DNA of 64,000 bases from Thiobacillus denitrificans (lineage in GTDB: Bacteria; Pseudomonadota; Gammaproteobacteria; Burkholderiales; Thiobacillaceae), in NCBI GenBank assembly GCA_020723405.1, contig DYIY01000003.1, positions 1-64,000 on the forward strand, read 5' to 3'. The position numbers and the translations under genes were made by a program. Positions 2,070 to 11,954 of this stretch are shown here, in pieces; the first letter of the stretch is position 1, and every line of letters starts with the position of its first letter. Below the pieces are notes generated by a model. That model was not told the DNA's origin, did no database searches, and saw only the letters and a list, made by a program, of their open reading frames with translations.

Positions 2070-2531
2070 TTAAGGGGCCCGCTGCCGGACCAGCCATCCG
2101 GTCAGAAATTCTTGGGCGGCGGCCAGATTGGCGGCGGCTTCCGGGCTCAGGTCGTCGCCCAGCTCGAAGCCGTAGGCCCGGATGCCCAAGGTCCAGGCCG
2201 GCGGTGGCGGCCGGCCGAAATGGCGGGCATAGGCGGCCAGCACCGCTTCCGGCGCCAGGGCGTGGCTGGTGTAGCTGGCGTCGGGCAGGGGCCCGGCGGG
2301 GCTGAAGCGGAAGGGGGCGTCGCCGGCCACACTGGCGTCCACGAAGACCACCCGCGCCCGGCCGTCCAGGTCCAGGAGGAATTCCACCTGCAACTGGTAG
2401 TCCTCCAGCAGTTCCACGCCGGGCAGGGCCAGGCTTGCCAGGCCTTTGAGCAGCAGGGGCCCCAGGGCGTCGTCGCCCCGGCTGGGGTTGCCGATGCCGA
2501 TGACCAGGGTGGGGGCCGGCTCCCCCGTCAC
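2070..2531 (-). CDS. hoxW: Hydrogenase maturation endopeptidase HoxW
   Basis: A 153-residue endopeptidase of the HybD/HoxW family that removes the C-terminal tail of the nickel-loaded HoxH subunit. The N-terminal LVIGIGNPSRGDDALGP motif holds the first acidic nickel ligand. VFVDAS supplies the second (Asp) and SHALAP the His. The start is a GTG whose last two bases share the TGA of hoxH (GTGA overlap), so translation is probably coupled. It is the last gene of hoxFUYHW. The size agrees with HoxW (about 160 residues). Confidence 0.92.
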   Translation of the reverse strand: MTGEPAPTLVIGIGNPSRGDDALGPLLLKGLASLALPGVELLEDYQLQVEFLLDLDGRARVVFVDASVAGDAPFRFSPAGPLPDASYTSHALAPEAVLAAYARHFGRPPPPAWTLGIRAYGFELGDDLSPEAAANLAAAQEFLTGWLVRQRAP

Positions 2532-3994
2532 GGGGCCGTGCCCAGCCGGTCCAGCAGGGCCCCGTCCGGGCCCAGCAGTTCCAGTTCCAGGGGCATCTTG
2601 CCCAGGGCGTGGGTGGCGCAGGACAGGCAGGGGTCGAAGGCCCGCACCGCGACTTCGATGTGGTTGAGCAGGCCTTCCGTGAGGGTCTGGCCGTCCAGGT
2701 ACTGGCTGGCCACCCGGCGGATGGCCTCGTTCATGGCCTGGTTGTTGTGGGTGGTGGAGACGATGAGGTTGGCCCGTACCACCAGATCGTTCTCGTCCAC
2801 CCGGTAGTGGTGGATGAGGGTGCCCCGGGGGGCCTCGATCATGCCCACGCCCCGCTCCCGGCGTTCCCCGGTGACCAGCAGGTCCTGGCCCAGCAGGTCG
2901 TCGTCGTGGAGCAGTTCCTTGATCATCTCGGCGGCGTGCAGCATCTCGATCATGCGCGCCCAGTGGTAGCCCAGGGTGGCGCCGGCCGCGTTGCCGCCGT
3001 CGAAGGCCAGGAAGTCCCGCCGCTCGTGGTCGGCGAAGGGGGTGGGGATGAAGTCGCACTGGCTCACCCGGGTCAGGGGCCCCACCCGGTACCAGCCGGC
3101 TTCGGGACCCAGTTCCCGGAAGAAAGGGAATTTCATGTAGGACCAGGACTTCACCTCTTCGTGGATGTGTTCCCAGTAGTGGTCGTAGTTCTCGTGGTCG
3201 AACAGGGTCTTGCCGTCCACCGTGCGGGCCCGCAGGCCCCCGTGGTAAAGGTCCATGGCCCCGTCGGCGCGGATCAGGCACAGGCTGTGGGCGTCGAAGC
3301 GGCCGAAACTGTTGTAGCGCTCCAGGTCCTGTTCGAACAGGCGCCGGGCCAGGGCCACGGCTTCCCGGCTCCAGGCGATGATCGGGTAGATGTCCTTGAG
3401 CAGGTGGTCCCGTTCCTCGCTGCTCAGGTTCTTGTTCACCCCGCCGGGCACGGAGCTGGTGCCGTGGACCCGCTTGCCGGCGGTGACCCGGATGACCTCC
3501 TGGCCGTACTTGCGCAGCAGCACCCCCTGTTTCGCCACGTCCGGATGGGCGGCGGCCACGCCGACGATGTTGCGCCGGGCCACCTCGGACCCGAAGCCGA
3601 ACAGCAGGTCCGGGGAGGAAAGATGGAAGAAATGCAGGGCGTGGGATTGCAGGATCTGCCCGTAGTGCATGAGCCGGCGCAGCTTTTCCGCCGTGGGCGT
3701 CAGGTGGTCCACGCCGACGATCTGGTCCATGGCCTTGGAGGCGGCCAGGTGGTGGGACACCGGGCAGATGCCGCACAGGCGCTGGACCATGACCGGGATT
3801 TCCCAGAAGGGCCGACCCTGGACGAACTTCTCGAAGCCGCGGAATTCCACGATGTGCAGACGGGCCTGCCGGACGTGGTTGTCCTCGTCGATGAGCAGGG
3901 TCACCTTGCCGTGGCCTTCCACCCGGGAAATGGGCTCGATGGCGACCCGGCGCAGGGTTTCCGGGTGGGGAGCGGTTTCCAGTTGCAGGGTCAT
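2528..3994 (-). CDS. hoxH: NAD-reducing hydrogenase large [NiFe] subunit HoxH
   Basis: A 488-residue catalytic subunit of the soluble bidirectional NAD-linked hydrogenase, which oxidises H2 or evolves it from NADH. The two cysteine pairs that hold the Ni-Fe site are present: RLCGICPVSHH (Cys74, Cys77) near the N terminus and DPCLSCATH (Cys456, Cys459, then His462) near the end. The 26 residues after His462 form the tail expected to be cut by HoxW, encoded next. GAGGA nine bases upstream supports the ATG at 3994. The spacer to hoxY carries two palindromic repeats. Confidence 0.98.
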   Translation of the reverse strand: MTLQLETAPHPETLRRVAIEPISRVEGHGKVTLLIDEDNHVRQARLHIVEFRGFEKFVQGRPFWEIPVMVQRLCGICPVSHHLAASKAMDQIVGVDHLTPTAEKLRRLMHYGQILQSHALHFFHLSSPDLLFGFGSEVARRNIVGVAAAHPDVAKQGVLLRKYGQEVIRVTAGKRVHGTSSVPGGVNKNLSSEERDHLLKDIYPIIAWSREAVALARRLFEQDLERYNSFGRFDAHSLCLIRADGAMDLYHGGLRARTVDGKTLFDHENYDHYWEHIHEEVKSWSYMKFPFFRELGPEAGWYRVGPLTRVSQCDFIPTPFADHERRDFLAFDGGNAAGATLGYHWARMIEMLHAAEMIKELLHDDDLLGQDLLVTGERRERGVGMIEAPRGTLIHHYRVDENDLVVRANLIVSTTHNNQAMNEAIRRVASQYLDGQTLTEGLLNHIEVAVRAFDPCLSCATHALGKMPLELELLGPDGALLDRLGTAP

Positions 3995-4038
3995 GGGGTG
4001 GGGTCCTCGGTGAATGGGGTGGGAATGGCGGGCGTTGG

Positions 4039-4071
4039 AATCCCCCCTAGCCCCCCTTTACAAAAGGGGGG
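4039..4071. repeat. G/C palindromic repeat, copy 1 (forward)
   Basis: The unit reads AATCCCCCCT, two variable bases, CCCCCCTTT, a short loop, then AAAGGGGGG. The CCCCCCTTT and AAAGGGGGG arms can form a hairpin. It lies in the hoxY-hoxH spacer and is paired with an inverted copy 26 bases further on. Confidence 0.9.
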
Positions 4072-4096
4072 AAGGGCTGGTCTGAACCGCGACCCG

Positions 4097-4132
4097 CTCC
4101 CCCCTTTGTTAAAGGGGGGTTGGGGGGGATTC
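4097..4132. repeat. G/C palindromic repeat, copy 2 (inverted)
   Basis: Inverted copy of the same unit, ending in AGGGGGG-TT-GGGGGGGATT. Together with copy 1 it can fold into a larger cruciform, because the unpaired AATCCCCCC arm of one is complementary to the GGGGGGATT arm of the other. Confidence 0.9.
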
Positions 4133-4163
4133 CGCCTTTCCAGCCCAAGCATCGCTTTACCCA

Positions 4164-4700
4164 TCAGTCGTACTTGATCAAGCCGTGCCCCAGCTTGGGC
4201 GTGCGCCCGGCGATGAGGTCGGTGAGGAATTTCCAGATGGCGTCCGCCGAGGGGGGGCAGCCGGGGATGAAGTAGTCCACCTTCACCACTTCATGGAGGG
4301 GGTGGACCTTGTCCAGGGGCAGGGGCAGTTCCGGGTCGTTGGGGATCAGGCCGTGTTCCAGGCCCCCTTCGGTGAGATAGACCTCCGACAGGCAGGCCCC
4401 CAGGTCCAGGTGGTTGCGCTGGGCGGGCAGGCCCCCGGTGACGGCGCAGGCGCCGATGGCGATGAGGGTCTTGCAGTTGGCCCGGAACTCCCGCAGTACG
4501 TGGACGTTTTCCGCGTTGCAGATGCCGCCTTCCACGATGCCGATGTCGCAGGGCCCGCAGTGCTTGATGTCGGTGAGGGGCGAGCGGTCGAATTCGATGA
4601 GGTCCAGGAGGGGAAACAGCCGCTCGTCGATGTCCAGCAGGGACATGTGGCAGCCGAAGCAGCCGGCCAGGGAGGTGGTAGCGACTTTGAGTTTAGGCAT
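4164..4700 (-). CDS. hoxY: NAD-reducing hydrogenase small subunit HoxY
   Basis: A 178-residue small subunit of the HoxYH hydrogenase module that carries the proximal [4Fe-4S] cluster next to the Ni-Fe site. The cluster ligands are visible as Cys14 and Cys17 (LAGCFGCHMSLLD), Cys85 (IGACAVTGG) and Cys148 (IPGCPPS). I start at the ATG at 4700 (MPKLKV). The frame stays open upstream, but that part is encoded by the palindromic repeat and is not hydrogenase sequence. No clear Shine-Dalgarno is seen. It lacks a twin-arginine signal, which fits a cytoplasmic enzyme. Confidence 0.96.
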   Translation of the reverse strand: MPKLKVATTSLAGCFGCHMSLLDIDERLFPLLDLIEFDRSPLTDIKHCGPCDIGIVEGGICNAENVHVLREFRANCKTLIAIGACAVTGGLPAQRNHLDLGACLSEVYLTEGGLEHGLIPNDPELPLPLDKVHPLHEVVKVDYFIPGCPPSADAIWKFLTDLIAGRTPKLGHGLIKYD

Positions 4701-4748
4701 GGTGGGGGTCCGGCTGCGCGGGGACGGGGTGGTGTGCGGGGCGGGACG

Positions 4749-4783
4749 AAACCCCCCCTGACCCCCCTTTTTCAAAGGGGGGG
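4749..4783. repeat. G/C palindromic repeat, copy 3 (forward)
   Basis: Same unit as copies 1 and 2, in the hoxU-hoxY spacer, with the arms CCCCCCTTTT and AAAGGGGGGG. If translated from an upstream start it would add a false N-terminal extension to HoxY. Confidence 0.9.
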
Positions 4784-4804
4784 ACACCGTCGCGGGGTTG
4801 TTGC

Positions 4805-4838
4805 TCCCCCCTTTGCAAAAGGGGGGCTGGGGGGGATT
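4805..4838. repeat. G/C palindromic repeat, copy 4 (inverted)
   Basis: Inverted partner of copy 3, with a 21-base gap between them. The same forward-inverted layout is seen in the hoxY-hoxH spacer. Confidence 0.9.
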
Positions 4839-4853
4839 TGCTGTTTGCCACAG

Positions 4854-5609
4854 TCACTCCTTCCCCTCACAAGCCGTGCATTTCCCTGCGCCGTCGGCCG
4901 TCCGGGGCGCGTCCCGCAGGGCCTGGGCGCTGATGGGCTGGGGATCGTAGCGGCGCTGGCCGATGGGCTGGGCGAAGCCCACCCGCTTCTTCAGGATCAC
5001 CCCCACGGGACAGACTTCCATGGCCTTGTCGGTCAGGGCCACGTCGGTGTCCGCCAGCAGGCCCGATTCGGCGTTGACCACCAGATGCTTGGTGAGACCC
5101 CGGCCGGACAGGGCGAAGACGCACTTGCCGTCCACCTCGCAGGAGGCCCGCACGCACAGTTCGCAGAGGATGCAGCGGTTGAAGTCCAGCAGGATGTCCG
5201 GGTGGGAAGCGTCCACCGGCCGGTCCGGGAAGAAATGCCGGAAGCCGGCGGTCATCACCCCCAGGTCGTAGCCCAGGGCCTGGAGGGTGCAGTTGCCGCT
5301 CTTCTCGCAGGAGGGGCAGAAATGGTTGCCCTCGGCGAACAGCATCTGCACCAGGGTGCGGCGCAGGTCGTTGACCTCGTCGCTGTCGCTTTCCACCGCC
5401 ATGCCCGCCTGGGCCGGCAGGGTGCAGGAGGCCACCAGGCGCCCGTCGGCCTTCACCGTGCACACCTTGCAACTGCCGTGGGGCTTGAACTCCGGGTGGT
5501 AGCACAGGTGGGGGATGTAGCGCCCGGCGGACAGGGCCGCCTGGATCACCGTCTGGCCCGGCTGGAAGGGGACTTCCTCGCCGTCGAGGAGAAAGGTGGC
5601 GTCAGTCAT
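4854..5609 (-). CDS. hoxU: NAD-reducing hydrogenase diaphorase small subunit HoxU
   Basis: A 251-residue NuoG-like electron-transfer subunit that links HoxF to HoxYH. It has an N-terminal [2Fe-2S] ferredoxin fold (Cys36, Cys47, Cys50, Cys62), then a His-Cys3 [4Fe-4S] motif (HFCPSCEKSGNC, His96, Cys98, Cys101, Cys107), then a ferredoxin-type motif CILCELCVRASC (Cys146, 149, 152, 157) with Cys200 in CPVGVI. This matches HoxU of the soluble hydrogenases in length and order. The start codon is preceded by CTCACC-type heptamer repeats rather than a Shine-Dalgarno. It is second in the operon; the spacer to hoxF is about 370 bases and is full of repeats. Confidence 0.97.
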   Translation of the reverse strand: MTDATFLLDGEEVPFQPGQTVIQAALSAGRYIPHLCYHPEFKPHGSCKVCTVKADGRLVASCTLPAQAGMAVESDSDEVNDLRRTLVQMLFAEGNHFCPSCEKSGNCTLQALGYDLGVMTAGFRHFFPDRPVDASHPDILLDFNRCILCELCVRASCEVDGKCVFALSGRGLTKHLVVNAESGLLADTDVALTDKAMEVCPVGVILKKRVGFAQPIGQRRYDPQPISAQALRDAPRTADGAGKCTACEGKE

Positions 5610-5611
5610 TT

Positions 5612-5645
5612 GTTGGTGAGGGGTGAGGAGTGTGGGGTGAGGAGA
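5612..5645. repeat. GGGTGAG heptamer repeat at the hoxU start
   Basis: Imperfect GGTGAGG / GGTGAGG / AGTGTGG / GGTGAGG units abut the hoxU start codon. They belong to the same microsatellite family as the arrays at 1-62 and 396-421. Confidence 0.7.
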
Positions 5646-5667
5646 GCGGTCCCCTCAGCGGGGCTGT

Positions 5668-5704
5668 TCTCCCCTCTTTGGTAAAGGGGGGCTGGGGGGG
5701 ATTT
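5668..5704. repeat. G/C palindromic repeat, copy 5 (inverted)
   Basis: Inverted unit in the hoxF-hoxU spacer. It is followed by a flank (TCGAGGGTGGCCAGGGC, then GATGTC and TGAAT) that is repeated almost exactly after copy 7. The repeated block is therefore about 70 bases long (5668-5736 versus 5811-5879). Confidence 0.9.
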
Positions 5705-5731
5705 ATCGAGGGTGGCCAGGGCTGATGTCTT

Positions 5732-5767
5732 GAATCCCCCCTCACCCCCCTTTTCCAAAGGGGGGAA
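5732..5767. repeat. G/C palindromic repeat, copy 6 (forward)
   Basis: Forward-oriented unit between copies 5 and 7, with arms CCCCCCTTTT and AAAGGGGGG. Confidence 0.9.
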
Positions 5768-5810
5768 TATGCGAGTGGCCAATCCGACGAGGTTTGCTGC
5801 CGTCGCGGGG

Positions 5811-5848
5811 TTCTCCCCCCTTTTGTAAAGGGGGGCTGGGGGGGATTT
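5811..5848. repeat. G/C palindromic repeat, copy 7 (inverted)
   Basis: Inverted unit with the same 30-base flank as copy 5, which suggests a local duplication of the larger block. It lies just downstream of the hoxF stop codon. Confidence 0.9.
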
Positions 5849-5982
5849 GCCGAGGGTGGCCAGGGCCGATGTCCTGAATTCCTCCGCATCCTCTTCATCC
5901 CGGAACGGGGGCTTTCCCAACCAGGGGAATCCCGGAGTCACCCGGCGGATGACGCCACCCCTGCTCGCGCCAGACGCCCACC

Positions 5983-7836
5983 TCATGGCTCCGTCCTCAG
6001 GTGCGCCCCCGCGTCGTCCCGGCCGGTCATCTGCCGGGCCCGTTCCAGGGCGCCGTCCAGGTCGAAGGCGGGTTCGAAGTCCAGGGACTTGAGGCGCCGT
6101 TCGTACATGGGGCGAAAGCGCTTCAGGGTGTCCAGGGTGGGGTTGCAGGCGGTGTGGCCCAGGCCGCAGTGGGCGCTCATGTGCAGCACCCGGTCCAGCT
6201 TGTCGATCTCCGCCAGGTCGTAGGGGGTGCCGTGGCCGGCGGCGATCTTGTCCAGGGTGGTCTTGAGCATGGCGGTGCCCACCCGGCAGGGGGTGCAGAA
6301 GCCGCAGCTTTCGTGGGCGAAGAAGTGGCTGTAGTTGCGCGCCACCTCGAACATGTCCCGGCTGCTGTCGAACACGGTGAAGGCGCCGGCGGTGGGCAGG
6401 TCTTCGAAGGCGATGCGCCGGTGGAACTCGGAGGCGTCGATGCACACCCCCGAGGGGCCGCTGATCTGCACGGCCAGGGTGTTCCCGGCGCCGCAGTCGG
6501 CCAGCACCTGGCTCACCGGGGTGCCGAAGGGATATTCGTAGATGCCCGGCCGGGCGCAGTCGCCGGCCACCGACAGGAGCTTGCTGCCGGCCGACTTGGC
6601 GGTGCCCATGGCCCGGTACCAGTCGCCGCCGTGTTTGGCGATGAGGGCGGCGGCGGCGAAGGTTTCCACGTTGTTCACCACCGTGGGCTTCTGCAGGTAG
6701 CCGTGGGTCACCGGGAAGGGCGGCCGGTTGCGCGGCACGCCCCGCTTGCCTTCCAGGGATTCGATGAGGGCCGATTCCTCGCCGCACACGTAGGCGCCGG
6801 CCCCCAGGCGGATTTCGATGTCGAAGTCGAAGCCGGCCCGGCCCAGGATGCCGTTGCCCAGCAGCCCGGCGGCCCGGCGCCGGTCCAGCACGGCGTTGAG
6901 GGGATCCAGCAGGAAGCGGTATTCGCCGCGCAGGTAGAGGAAGCCCTGGCGGGCCCCCACCACGTGGGCGCAGACGGTCATGCCCTCGAACACCAGGTCG
7001 GCCTGGCGGGCCAGCAGCACCCGGTCCTTGAAGGTGCCCGGTTCCCCTTCGTCGGCGTTGCACACCACGTAGCGGGGCTGGCCCGGGGCGTTGCGGCAGG
7101 CTTCCCACTTGAGGCCCGTGGTGAAGCCGGCACCCCCCCGGCCCCGCAGGTTGGCCCGCTTGATCTCTTCCAGGGTGGCGGTGGCGCCGGCCGGGGTGCC
7201 GTGGCCTTCCCGCCAGGAGCGGGCGTTGGCGGCCTGTTCCGGGGTGTCTTCCGCATCCCGGGCCAGGGCGGCGGCCAGGGCTTCGCCGGGGGCCAGGCCA
7301 TGGTCCAGCAGGGGACCGGCCCGGCGGACGTTGTCGTGGATTTCAAACAGTTCGGCGGGCCAGTCGTCCATGGGGGTCCGGGCCAGGATCAGGTCGGCCA
7401 CCCGGTCGAGTTTTTCCCGGGTGAGCCCCCCCAGGGCCCGGCCGTTGACCAGCAGGCCCGGACCCTGGTCGCACAGGCCGGTGCAGGAGGTGGTGTCCAC
7501 GGACACCAGGCCGTCTTCCGAGAGGCGGCCCTGTTCCACCCAGAGCTTCTCGCAGAAGGCGGCCAGGAGGGCCTGGTTGCCCTGCATGCGGTCGGTGATG
7601 TTGTCGGAAAAGAGCACCCGGTAGCGGCCCTGGGGCCGGTCGCTGAGGAAGGCGTAGAAACCGATCACCCCCCACACCCGGGCCAGGGGCACGCCCAGGC
7701 TTTCCGCCAGGGCCGAGGCGGCGGCCGGCGGTACGTGGCCATGTTCGGCCTGGACCTCGATGAGGGCCTGCAAGAGGCGTTCCGGCCGGCCGGCATGGCG
7801 GGCCAGGACGGCGTCCAGCGCGTCCGTTGTCTCCAT
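5983..7836 (-). CDS. hoxF: NAD-reducing hydrogenase diaphorase large subunit HoxF
   Basis: A 617-residue NADH-oxidoreductase subunit, first gene of hoxFUYHW. Residues 1 to about 160 are NuoE-like and the rest NuoF-like. The FMN/NAD region shows GRGGAGFTTGLKW and GAGAYVCGEESAL. The C-terminal ESCGFCTPCRVG plus a later Cys (HTACNP) hold a [4Fe-4S] cluster. In the NuoE-like part only the second cysteine pair (SCTGLC) is present. The usual first pair is replaced by a Ser and an Asp (SDNITDRM), so that [2Fe-2S] site looks incomplete. Length fits HoxF (about 600). The 96-base gap to priA has no promoter I can assign with confidence. Confidence 0.97.
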   Translation of the reverse strand: METTDALDAVLARHAGRPERLLQALIEVQAEHGHVPPAAASALAESLGVPLARVWGVIGFYAFLSDRPQGRYRVLFSDNITDRMQGNQALLAAFCEKLWVEQGRLSEDGLVSVDTTSCTGLCDQGPGLLVNGRALGGLTREKLDRVADLILARTPMDDWPAELFEIHDNVRRAGPLLDHGLAPGEALAAALARDAEDTPEQAANARSWREGHGTPAGATATLEEIKRANLRGRGGAGFTTGLKWEACRNAPGQPRYVVCNADEGEPGTFKDRVLLARQADLVFEGMTVCAHVVGARQGFLYLRGEYRFLLDPLNAVLDRRRAAGLLGNGILGRAGFDFDIEIRLGAGAYVCGEESALIESLEGKRGVPRNRPPFPVTHGYLQKPTVVNNVETFAAAALIAKHGGDWYRAMGTAKSAGSKLLSVAGDCARPGIYEYPFGTPVSQVLADCGAGNTLAVQISGPSGVCIDASEFHRRIAFEDLPTAGAFTVFDSSRDMFEVARNYSHFFAHESCGFCTPCRVGTAMLKTTLDKIAAGHGTPYDLAEIDKLDRVLHMSAHCGLGHTACNPTLDTLKRFRPMYERRLKSLDFEPAFDLDGALERARQMTGRDDAGAHLRTEP

Positions 7837-10412: not shown

Positions 10413-11846
10413 TCAGGGGCCGGCTTTTCCCCCCTGCGGCCGGGCTGTCCCGGACCCGTCATCCATGGCCACCGCCCAGGCCAGCAGGGCGTCCTGGGCC
10501 TTCCCGGCGGCGGCTGCCTGGTTGTGGTTGACCAGCATGACCAGCACCCGGCGACGGCCGTCCGCCCCCAGCACGTAACCCGCCAGGTTGCGGGAGCCGT
10601 TCAGGCTGCCGGTTTTCAGCCAGGCCCGCCCCGCCAGGGGGGAATCGCCCAGGCGGCCCTTCTGGGTGCCTTCCAGGCCCACGGCCGGCAGGCTGGCGGC
10701 GAACTCGTAGTAGGCCGGGCGGCTGGCGGCCCAGGCCAGCAGGCGGGCCAGGCTGGCGGTGGAGATGCGTTCGATGCGCGACAGGCCGGAGCCGTTTTCC
10801 AGGACGATCTCCGGGCTCCACAGGCCCTGCTCGGCGAGCCAGGCGCGCACTGCCCGGGCGCCCTTGTCCCAGGTGGCCGGCCCGCCGAAGCGGGCGGCGC
10901 CCAGGTTGAGGAAGAGCATCTTGGCCATGACGTTGTTGCTGAACTTGTTCACGTCCCGCGCCAACTCGGCCAGGGGGGGCGAGTCGAACTCCAGCAGCAG
11001 CCGGGCCTCGGGGCCGGGGATGCAGGGCAGGATGGCGCCGCTGTGGCGGCCGCCCAGTTCCAGCCACAGGGCGCGGAACCAGGCCGCCACGCTGGCCTCC
11101 GGAGCGAGGAGGTTGAGGGGGTGAAGCTGTTCGCCGCAGGCCAGGGGATAACTGCCCTCCAGGATGAGACGGCCTTCCTCCAGGCGCAGGCCGACGCTTT
11201 CCCGCCAGTTGCCGCACAGGCCGTCGCCCCCCGCCAGATTGTTGTCCAGGGGCAGGGCCAGGTCCGGTTCCAGGCTGGCCCGGACCTGGCCGGCCACGGG
11301 GGCCAGGCGCAGGTTCATGGCGTTGAAGTTGGCCAGCAGGGCGGCCGGCGGCGCGTTGTAGGGGCGCAGGGGCGCCTGGTCGAAGGCGCCCGGGTCGATG
11401 GGCTCCAGTTCGTAGAGGCTGCCGTCCAGCAGGACGTTGCCGCGAATCTCCCGGATGCCCCGGGCGCGGATCTCCCGCAGCAGCAGCCAGAAGCGCTCCC
11501 GGGTGAGGCCCGGGTCCCCCCCGCCTTGCAGGATCAGGTTGCCGGTGAGTACGTCGTCCTTGACTTCGCCCTCCACCCAGACCCGGGTCTTGAAGACATG
11601 GGCGGGGCCCAGGGTGTCCAGGGCGGCCAGGGTGGTGACCAGCTTCATTACCGAGGCGGGGTTGAAGGAGCGCTCGATTCCGTGGGCCAGGCGGGGGGTG
11701 GGGCTGTCCAGGTCCTGGACCAGGACGCCCACGTGGCTGTCGGGGATGCCGGCCTGCTTCAGGGCCTGGGCCAGGGCAGGGGGCAGGTCGGCCCGGGCAG
11801 GCAGGGCGAGGAGGAGGGTGGCCAGCAAGACGGTAAACCAGACCAC
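10413..11846 (-). CDS. dacB: D-alanyl-D-alanine carboxypeptidase/endopeptidase (PBP4 family)
   Basis: A 477-residue periplasmic penicillin-binding protein of the S13 family that trims peptidoglycan peptides. The N terminus is a signal peptide (WFTVLLATLLLALPARA). The catalytic motifs are SVMK (Ser65, Lys68), SNN (about residue 295) and KTG (in LKTGSLNG, about residue 430). I start at the GTG at 11846, directly before the signal peptide, with GGAGG about ten bases upstream. The frame is open further upstream, but that part is palindromic-repeat sequence. Length equals E. coli DacB. Confidence 0.93.
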   Translation of the reverse strand: MVWFTVLLATLLLALPARADLPPALAQALKQAGIPDSHVGVLVQDLDSPTPRLAHGIERSFNPASVMKLVTTLAALDTLGPAHVFKTRVWVEGEVKDDVLTGNLILQGGGDPGLTRERFWLLLREIRARGIREIRGNVLLDGSLYELEPIDPGAFDQAPLRPYNAPPAALLANFNAMNLRLAPVAGQVRASLEPDLALPLDNNLAGGDGLCGNWRESVGLRLEEGRLILEGSYPLACGEQLHPLNLLAPEASVAAWFRALWLELGGRHSGAILPCIPGPEARLLLEFDSPPLAELARDVNKFSNNVMAKMLFLNLGAARFGGPATWDKGARAVRAWLAEQGLWSPEIVLENGSGLSRIERISTASLARLLAWAASRPAYYEFAASLPAVGLEGTQKGRLGDSPLAGRAWLKTGSLNGSRNLAGYVLGADGRRRVLVMLVNHNQAAAAGKAQDALLAWAVAMDDGSGTARPQGGKAGP

Positions 11847-11887
11847 CCCCCATTCCCTCCTTTCATGAAGGGGGGCCAGGGGGGATT
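11846..11887. repeat. G/C palindromic repeat, copy 8 (inverted, degenerate)
   Basis: Member of the hox-spacer repeat family with one mutated arm (CCATTCCCTCCTTTC). It overlaps the translation start of dacB, whose Shine-Dalgarno GGAGG falls inside the degenerate arm. Confidence 0.75.
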
Positions 11888-11918
11888 TTGCTCCCGTGGC
11901 TGCTGGGCGACCGTCTGA

Positions 11919-11954
11919 AAATCCCCCCTGCCCCCCTTTGCCACAGGGGGGAAA
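11919..11954. repeat. G/C palindromic repeat, copy 9 (forward)
   Basis: Well-preserved unit (AATCCCCCCT, then CCCCCCTTT and an AGGGGGG arm) in the tviC-dacB spacer, forming an opposed pair with copy 8. Confidence 0.85.

Follow-up and report, generated by a model that had tools for sequence, protein, structure and literature searches.

The palindromic units in the spacers of the hox operon are paired, in this genome and in many bacterial phyla, with a predicted nuclease gene of the DUF559 family (PF04480). This DUF559-repeat pairing is well supported, and on sequence comparison it appears to tie a new partner gene to the triplex-type repeats, both in this genome and as far afield as E. coli; the open-access literature, where the triplex-motif paper (PMC4666352) alone proved relevant, yielded no earlier link between DUF559 and repeats, although subscription papers may hold one. 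We think it probable that the units are dispersed end-repeat copies of a small element in which one DUF559 gene is flanked by inverted triplex-type palindromes and the nuclease would spread unit-bounded DNA. We infer that the DUF559 nuclease may mobilise the units, in what would be a REPIN/RAYT-like system built upon a different nuclease.

The window (the whole 64,000-nt stretch analysed) holds nine copies of a 34-nt unit, seven across three hox spacers and two upstream of dacB. The A orientation (AATCCCCCC...) reads AAATCCCCCC-N2-3-CCCCCCTTT-N3-AAAGGGGGG; the B orientation is its reverse complement. Profile matches give the operon order hoxF-U-Y-H-W, with spacers of 373 (F-U), 153 (U-Y) and 169 bp (Y-H). 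The features are as follows.

2070..2531, minus strand: hoxW, maturation protease (TIGR00072); no unit
2528..3994, minus strand: hoxH (profile matches)
4039..4072, plus strand (A): unit, hoxY-hoxH spacer
4098..4132, minus strand (B): unit, hoxY-hoxH spacer; opposed pair with 4039-4072 (-71.7 kcal/mol, z -6.9)
4164..4700, minus strand: hoxY (profile matches and comparison with relatives)
4749..4782, plus strand (A): unit, hoxU-hoxY spacer
4805..4839, minus strand (B): unit, hoxU-hoxY spacer; opposed pair with 4749-4782 (-63.5 kcal/mol)
4854..5609, minus strand: hoxU (top profile HoxU, under its cut-off; alignable to relatives)
5666..5756, no strand: duplicated block, first copy; shares 85% identity across 91 nt with 5810-5900
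5670..5704, minus strand (B): unit, hoxF-hoxU spacer
5733..5766, plus strand (A): unit, hoxF-hoxU spacer; its B-A spacing to the 5670 unit falls in the tight 52-58 nt class
5810..5900, no strand: duplicated block, second copy
5814..5848, minus strand (B): unit, hoxF-hoxU spacer
5983..7836, minus strand: hoxF (NuoE/NuoF-type profiles)
10413..11846, minus strand: dacB, PBP4 family (TIGR00666)
11852..11888, minus strand (B): unit, upstream of dacB
11918..11953, plus strand (A): unit, upstream of dacB

With up to three mismatches allowed, the core pattern matches the window 19 times, the nine units being hit in overlapping registers; shuffles predict 0.79 matches, and none of them attained 19. A sequence-only reading had placed seven units in the hoxF-U, hoxU-Y and hoxY-H spacers and two before dacB, and all nine were located. 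The hoxH-hoxW junction, which it had described as free of units, is an overlap of the two genes at 2528-2531 with no unit in it, and the duplication that it had noticed inside the hoxF-U spacer is the 91-nt block listed above. Its further claim that the array is still growing is unsupported, since 85% identity speaks against a very recent duplication. The large RNA hairpins that it had envisaged are predicted: the four hox pairings tested fold at -59 to -72 kcal/mol (z -5.6 to -6.9) and the dacB pair less strongly (-57.6 kcal/mol, z -3.3). A 98-codon open frame crosses all three units of the hoxF-U spacer (5602-5898, minus strand). At the contig end, positions 1-76 of the window consist of a tandem repeat, GTGAGGAGTGAGGA, and a related stretch occurs again at 5616-5649.

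In two genomes whose HoxH is 88% identical (G015 and G020), the hoxU-hoxY and hoxY-hoxH gaps measure ∼15–18 bp and hold no units. Because the spacers of relatives are only tens of bases long and lack units, the hox units are insertions, and they part genes that in relatives touch or almost touch; the hox spacers of G015 and G020 are too diverged for the ends of the insertions to be fixed. In a genome from another genus of the family (G030), the hoxY-hoxH gap contains a GTAG-type REP pair (L041:2930-3160), consisting of TGTAGGAGCGGACCTCGTCCGC and an inverted copy with a run of N in between. Two unrelated repeat systems have struck this one spacer, one in G030 and the other in the present genome. 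The hoxY-hoxH gap of G021 and G007 (∼740 bp; L042, L052 ∼750–1500) seems to code for a PIN-domain toxin paired with an AbrB-type antitoxin.

Box C, PIT and triplex repeats have been recognised in E. coli since the 1990s and were subsequently counted in hundreds of genomes. In the window copies, CCCCCCTTT-N3-AAAGGGGGG-N2-3-GGGGGGATT forms a pyrimidine arm, a loop, a purine arm, a loop and a second purine block, with mirror symmetry. This layout places the unit among the G/C-rich class II purine-motif potential intrastrand triplex repeats (PIT/box C/TM). It shares with the E. coli box C/PIT/TMECO elements (PMC4666352) a C-rich arm, short loop, G-rich arm, ∼3-nt loop and second G-rich block, as well as opposed pairing, a mainly intergenic location, hundreds of copies in some genomes and a patchy distribution among close relatives. 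The stems differ, being CCCCCCTTT/AAAGGGGGG in the unit and CCCTCNCCC/GGGNGAGGG in TMECO/box C, and membership of the TMECO/box C subfamily was rejected because the stem that it requires is absent from the unit. Triplex formation has been demonstrated in vitro for TMECO, near which Holder et al. never found mobility genes (PMC4666352), whereas a partner gene was identified for the present unit. In a pattern scan of GTDB contigs, the unit was found in records of at least 15 phyla among the matches listed.

The unit also has the traits of a REP/REPIN sequence, being a 20–40 bp imperfect palindrome of high copy number that lies outside genes in opposed pairs, and Y1_Tnp genes are frequent in the genus. 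These likenesses would suit REPs of the ordinary kind, moved by a RAYT (Y1 transposase). The GTAG/CGTC tag of such repeats is not conserved, the bases preceding the stem in the window copies being TAG, CAA, TGA, CAG, TCA and TGG. A profile search matched no Y1_Tnp (PF01797) gene in the present genome (G000, 99.3% complete) or in the unit-carrying G020 and G021, and unit abundance over 61 relatives is uncorrelated with Y1_Tnp (p = 0.75). The RAYT link that the sequence-only reading had suggested is contradicted in this genome by these results; we rejected a RAYT-type REP identity for lack of the GTAG tag and of a Y1 transposase gene in the genome, and mobilisation by a RAYT is hardly credible. 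The resemblance to REPIN-RAYT systems (PMC3116915, PMC3733652) is one of organisation. Both comprise high-copy, gene-less inverted doublets and a single- or few-copy nuclease or transposase gene flanked by the same repeat, with the repeat type tied to the nuclease lineage and vertical persistence. They differ in that the present system has a Vsr-like DUF559 protein rather than a Y1 (HUH) transposase, lacks the GTAG tag and has a third G-block. CGTC-tagged REPs (PMC3733652) are likewise a palindromic family reported without a dedicated transposase, and differ from the units in sequence and tag.

Across the 4.15-Mb genome there are 169 asymmetric units (at most three mismatches); a reversed control pattern gave none. 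In an 855-kb sample of the genome, ∼88% coding, for which we called the genes ourselves, 61 of 74 units are extragenic. This bears out the earlier description of a dispersed, REP-like palindrome that favours intergenic sites, which make up ∼12% of the sample. All 23 occupied gaps in the sample are co-directional, while none of its 82 convergent and 78 divergent gaps holds a unit (Fisher p = 0.0075 by gap number; the preference is stronger by base pairs). Neighbouring units are spaced mostly 52–58 nt apart from B to A and 23–95 nt from A to B, and arrays of short period also occur (e.g., ∼135 in G012). Three unit pairs lie in frame within hypF and one within hypX (G000 C5:319510-322368 and 313456-315285; L083, L084), where they supply linkers such as EIPPSPPLQKGG...LPFVKGGQEGF.

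The sole DUF559 gene of the genome, at C5:315422-315745, has a unit pair on either side (315326/315378 and 315803/315855). It is surrounded by a hydrogenase cluster with regulatory hydrogenase subunits, a sigma-54 activator, hypX, hypE, hypF, hypB and others. Unit density within 10 kb of the gene is ∼16-fold that elsewhere in the sample, and listings show comparable crowding near DUF559 in G020 and G012. The junction of hypE and hypX measures 504–769 bp and contains DUF559 and units in seven genomes, the present one included; it measures 3–19 bp and contains neither in five relatives; the two genes abut in G015, with the stop of hypE against the start of hypX. By presence and absence at this defined site, the DUF559 gene and its units are a cassette inserted in the hypE-hypX junction. 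The flanks at the hypE-hypX and hox sites are too diverged for precise ends or a target-site duplication to be read. Among 61 relatives, unit abundance tracks one DUF559 clade (clade DUF559 against at least two units, 11/0/5/45, p = 1e-8). The reading frame of the DUF559 gene is open across the flanking units, with no ATG before the domain and a GTG available.

The protein matches the DUF559 profile at 112.9 bits (cut-off 20.6), and E21, D49, E60-x-D62-G63-x-x-H66, D76, R79 and R92 are invariant. Its AlphaFold2 model (pLDDT 88.7) retrieves the gonococcal DUF559 structure 3HRL first and I-Bth0305I (3R3P) next, with weaker matches, 1CW0 among them, to Vsr and TnsA. The conserved acidic and histidine residues are of active-site type, and together with the model they predict a Vsr-like PD-(D/E)XK nuclease. 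I-Bth0305I, a Vsr-type homing endonuclease and the second-best solved structure (E = 7e-5), is a mobile-DNA nuclease with the fold of DUF559; unlike I-Bth0305I, the DUF559 gene is framed by palindromic repeats.

When open reading frames were clustered from the first 80 loci fetched by the unit pattern, DUF559 was the only cluster that unrelated phyla had in common within ∼110 bp of their units; the clustering script named no family, and DUF559 was nevertheless suspected beforehand. PF04480 is present in 37 of the 42 genomes that were picked, across many phyla, for carrying units; many of the genomes analysed are MAGs. A tree built from 94 DUF559 domains places 43 of the 45 unit-flanked members in one 47-row clade that spans many phyla. 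The tree requires five label changes, compared with 31.8 when labels are shuffled (0/500 shuffles as low); it rests on 113 columns of a short domain, with poorly resolved deep forks, and the shuffles ignore relatedness. The nearest unit to the left of the gene is in the B orientation in 28 of 31 cases and that to the right in the A orientation in 34 of 39, so that the gene occupies the place of the ∼30-nt spacer in a gene-less B-A pair. Gene-bearing B-[DUF559]-A forms, often inside A-B...A-B, and the numerous gene-less A-B and B-A pairs have ends in common (B-gene-A versus B-N∼30-A). Two Okeania copies on separate contigs with differing flanks share 92% identity across a 460-bp stretch bounded by units. 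An apparently multi-copy DUF559 of G076, with matches at contig ends, was rejected, the main copy sharing no DNA with the others tested.

DUF559 genes outside the clade were initially taken as repeat-free, which proved wrong once any homopurine hairpin was searched for and box C-type repeats were revealed. A homopurine hairpin lies within 200 bp of 41 of these 52 genes, at a density of 1.65 per 400 bp nearby compared with 0.10 far off, and most have the box C-like arms CCCTCTCCC/GGGAGAGGG. The ratio of T-type to box C-type repeats is 42:2 inside the clade and 2:24 outside (p = 2.8e-14 on unmixed genes; nine genes outside the clade with both types and 12 with none were left out). This contrast shows that repeat type follows nuclease clade. 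In a sample of 299 Pseudomonadota, drawn without regard to units, 13 genomes carry at least one strict unit. Five carry at least two typical units (G000, G382, G103, G276 and G301); all five have DUF559, which in four of them has units of this type as its direct neighbours. The exception is G103, where the gene stands between two identical hairpins of box C type. G276 and G301 have hardly any units beyond those that frame it.

We propose that the DUF559 nuclease would recognise the folded or duplex unit and nick or cleave next to it, after which the unit-bounded DNA would be copied or moved, preferentially close to its source. This is likened to the supposed action of RAYT transposases on REPINs, although the nuclease class is unrelated. 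The hox units would then be gene-less passengers that landed in co-directional junctions, and any effect on hox mRNA would be a by-product or a later co-option. Several observations count against mobilisation by DUF559. The inner spacers of unit pairs are mostly unconserved. Within the genus, most carriers have the DUF559 gene at a single shared position, and so it appears to be mostly vertically inherited, like RAYT. Units also occur without a clade DUF559 gene in G050 (complete, 17 units), in G036 and in the incomplete G002, G005 and G009. Finally, a nuclease that merely tended such structures would likewise travel with units. The main rival reading develops this last point: DUF559 would be a caretaker or addiction partner that resolves or patrols triplexes or hairpins, or kills cells that lose it, while the repeats spread via replication slippage or recombination. 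Vsr-like enzymes are repair nucleases, and in Caulobacter a Vsr-like DUF559 protein triggers a DNA damage response once its methylation partner is missing (PMC12907096). Triplex motifs, moreover, are associated with genome instability (PMC4666352). A tidy-up role alone leaves unexplained the B-gene-A framing, the nearly identical unit-bounded copies of Okeania and the genomes with units almost solely around DUF559, and we hold this rival to be unlikely, though deserving of attention.

If the hox units were RNA hairpins kept by selection to regulate HoxF:U:Y:H ratios or the stability of the mRNA, along the lines of the sequence-only reading, their strong predicted folding and the consistently co-directional setting of occupied gaps would be accounted for. 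Close relatives run the same operon without units, even at 88% HoxH identity, which argues against a conserved function; the units are scattered over hydrogenase and other loci, even in frame within hypF and hypX, and PIT/box C elements are reported to lack promoter or terminator activity (PMC4666352). We consider regulation improbable as the reason for their presence. Triplex-driven instability and slippage might alone create and spread units with no dedicated enzyme (the model of Holder et al. 2015), as the local block duplication in the hoxF-U spacer and the short-period arrays would suggest. This model leaves the clade-specific repeat type, the co-occurrence with one DUF559 clade and the spread over many phyla unexplained, and it strikes us as very improbable.

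E. coli K-12 has ycjD as its DUF559 gene, with a box C-like core across the 3′ end of the gene and, 168 bp downstream, element no. 9 of the published TMECO table (PMC4666352). The gene is present in 3,365 of 5,426 complete E. coli genomes. In ycjD-negative E. coli, an RND-efflux block upstream of fabI replaces sapF-ycjD (L338, L339, L349); a clean empty ycjD site was not found in their sapF-fabI region, where ends are unreadable. One E. coli control genome had no PF04480 match although MG1655 has ycjD, and is perhaps a ycjD-negative strain; the control figure of 2/14 for PF04480 was left out of the evidence.

The open-access literature searched names no spreading agent for box C/PIT repeats. 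A nuclease partner matched to the repeat by clade makes their spread testable, including in E. coli K-12 through ycjD. If the nuclease does move the units, bacterial chromosomes would hold a second, RAYT-unrelated solution for REPIN-like populations, and the annotation of a very common gene, DUF559 ('endonuclease domain-containing protein', function unknown), would change. We see an even chance that these loci represent an unrecognised class of minimal bacterial mobile elements. In each, a lone DUF559 (E. coli YcjD family) nuclease would be framed by triplex-type palindromes, with repeat types co-diverged across many phyla, explaining the origin of the E. coli box C/PIT repeats and of the CCCCCTTT/AAAGGGGG repeats of many genomes. 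On one contig with a viral classification, four units come after a DUF559 gene (L035:5717-6216), and this contig may be a transfer vehicle.
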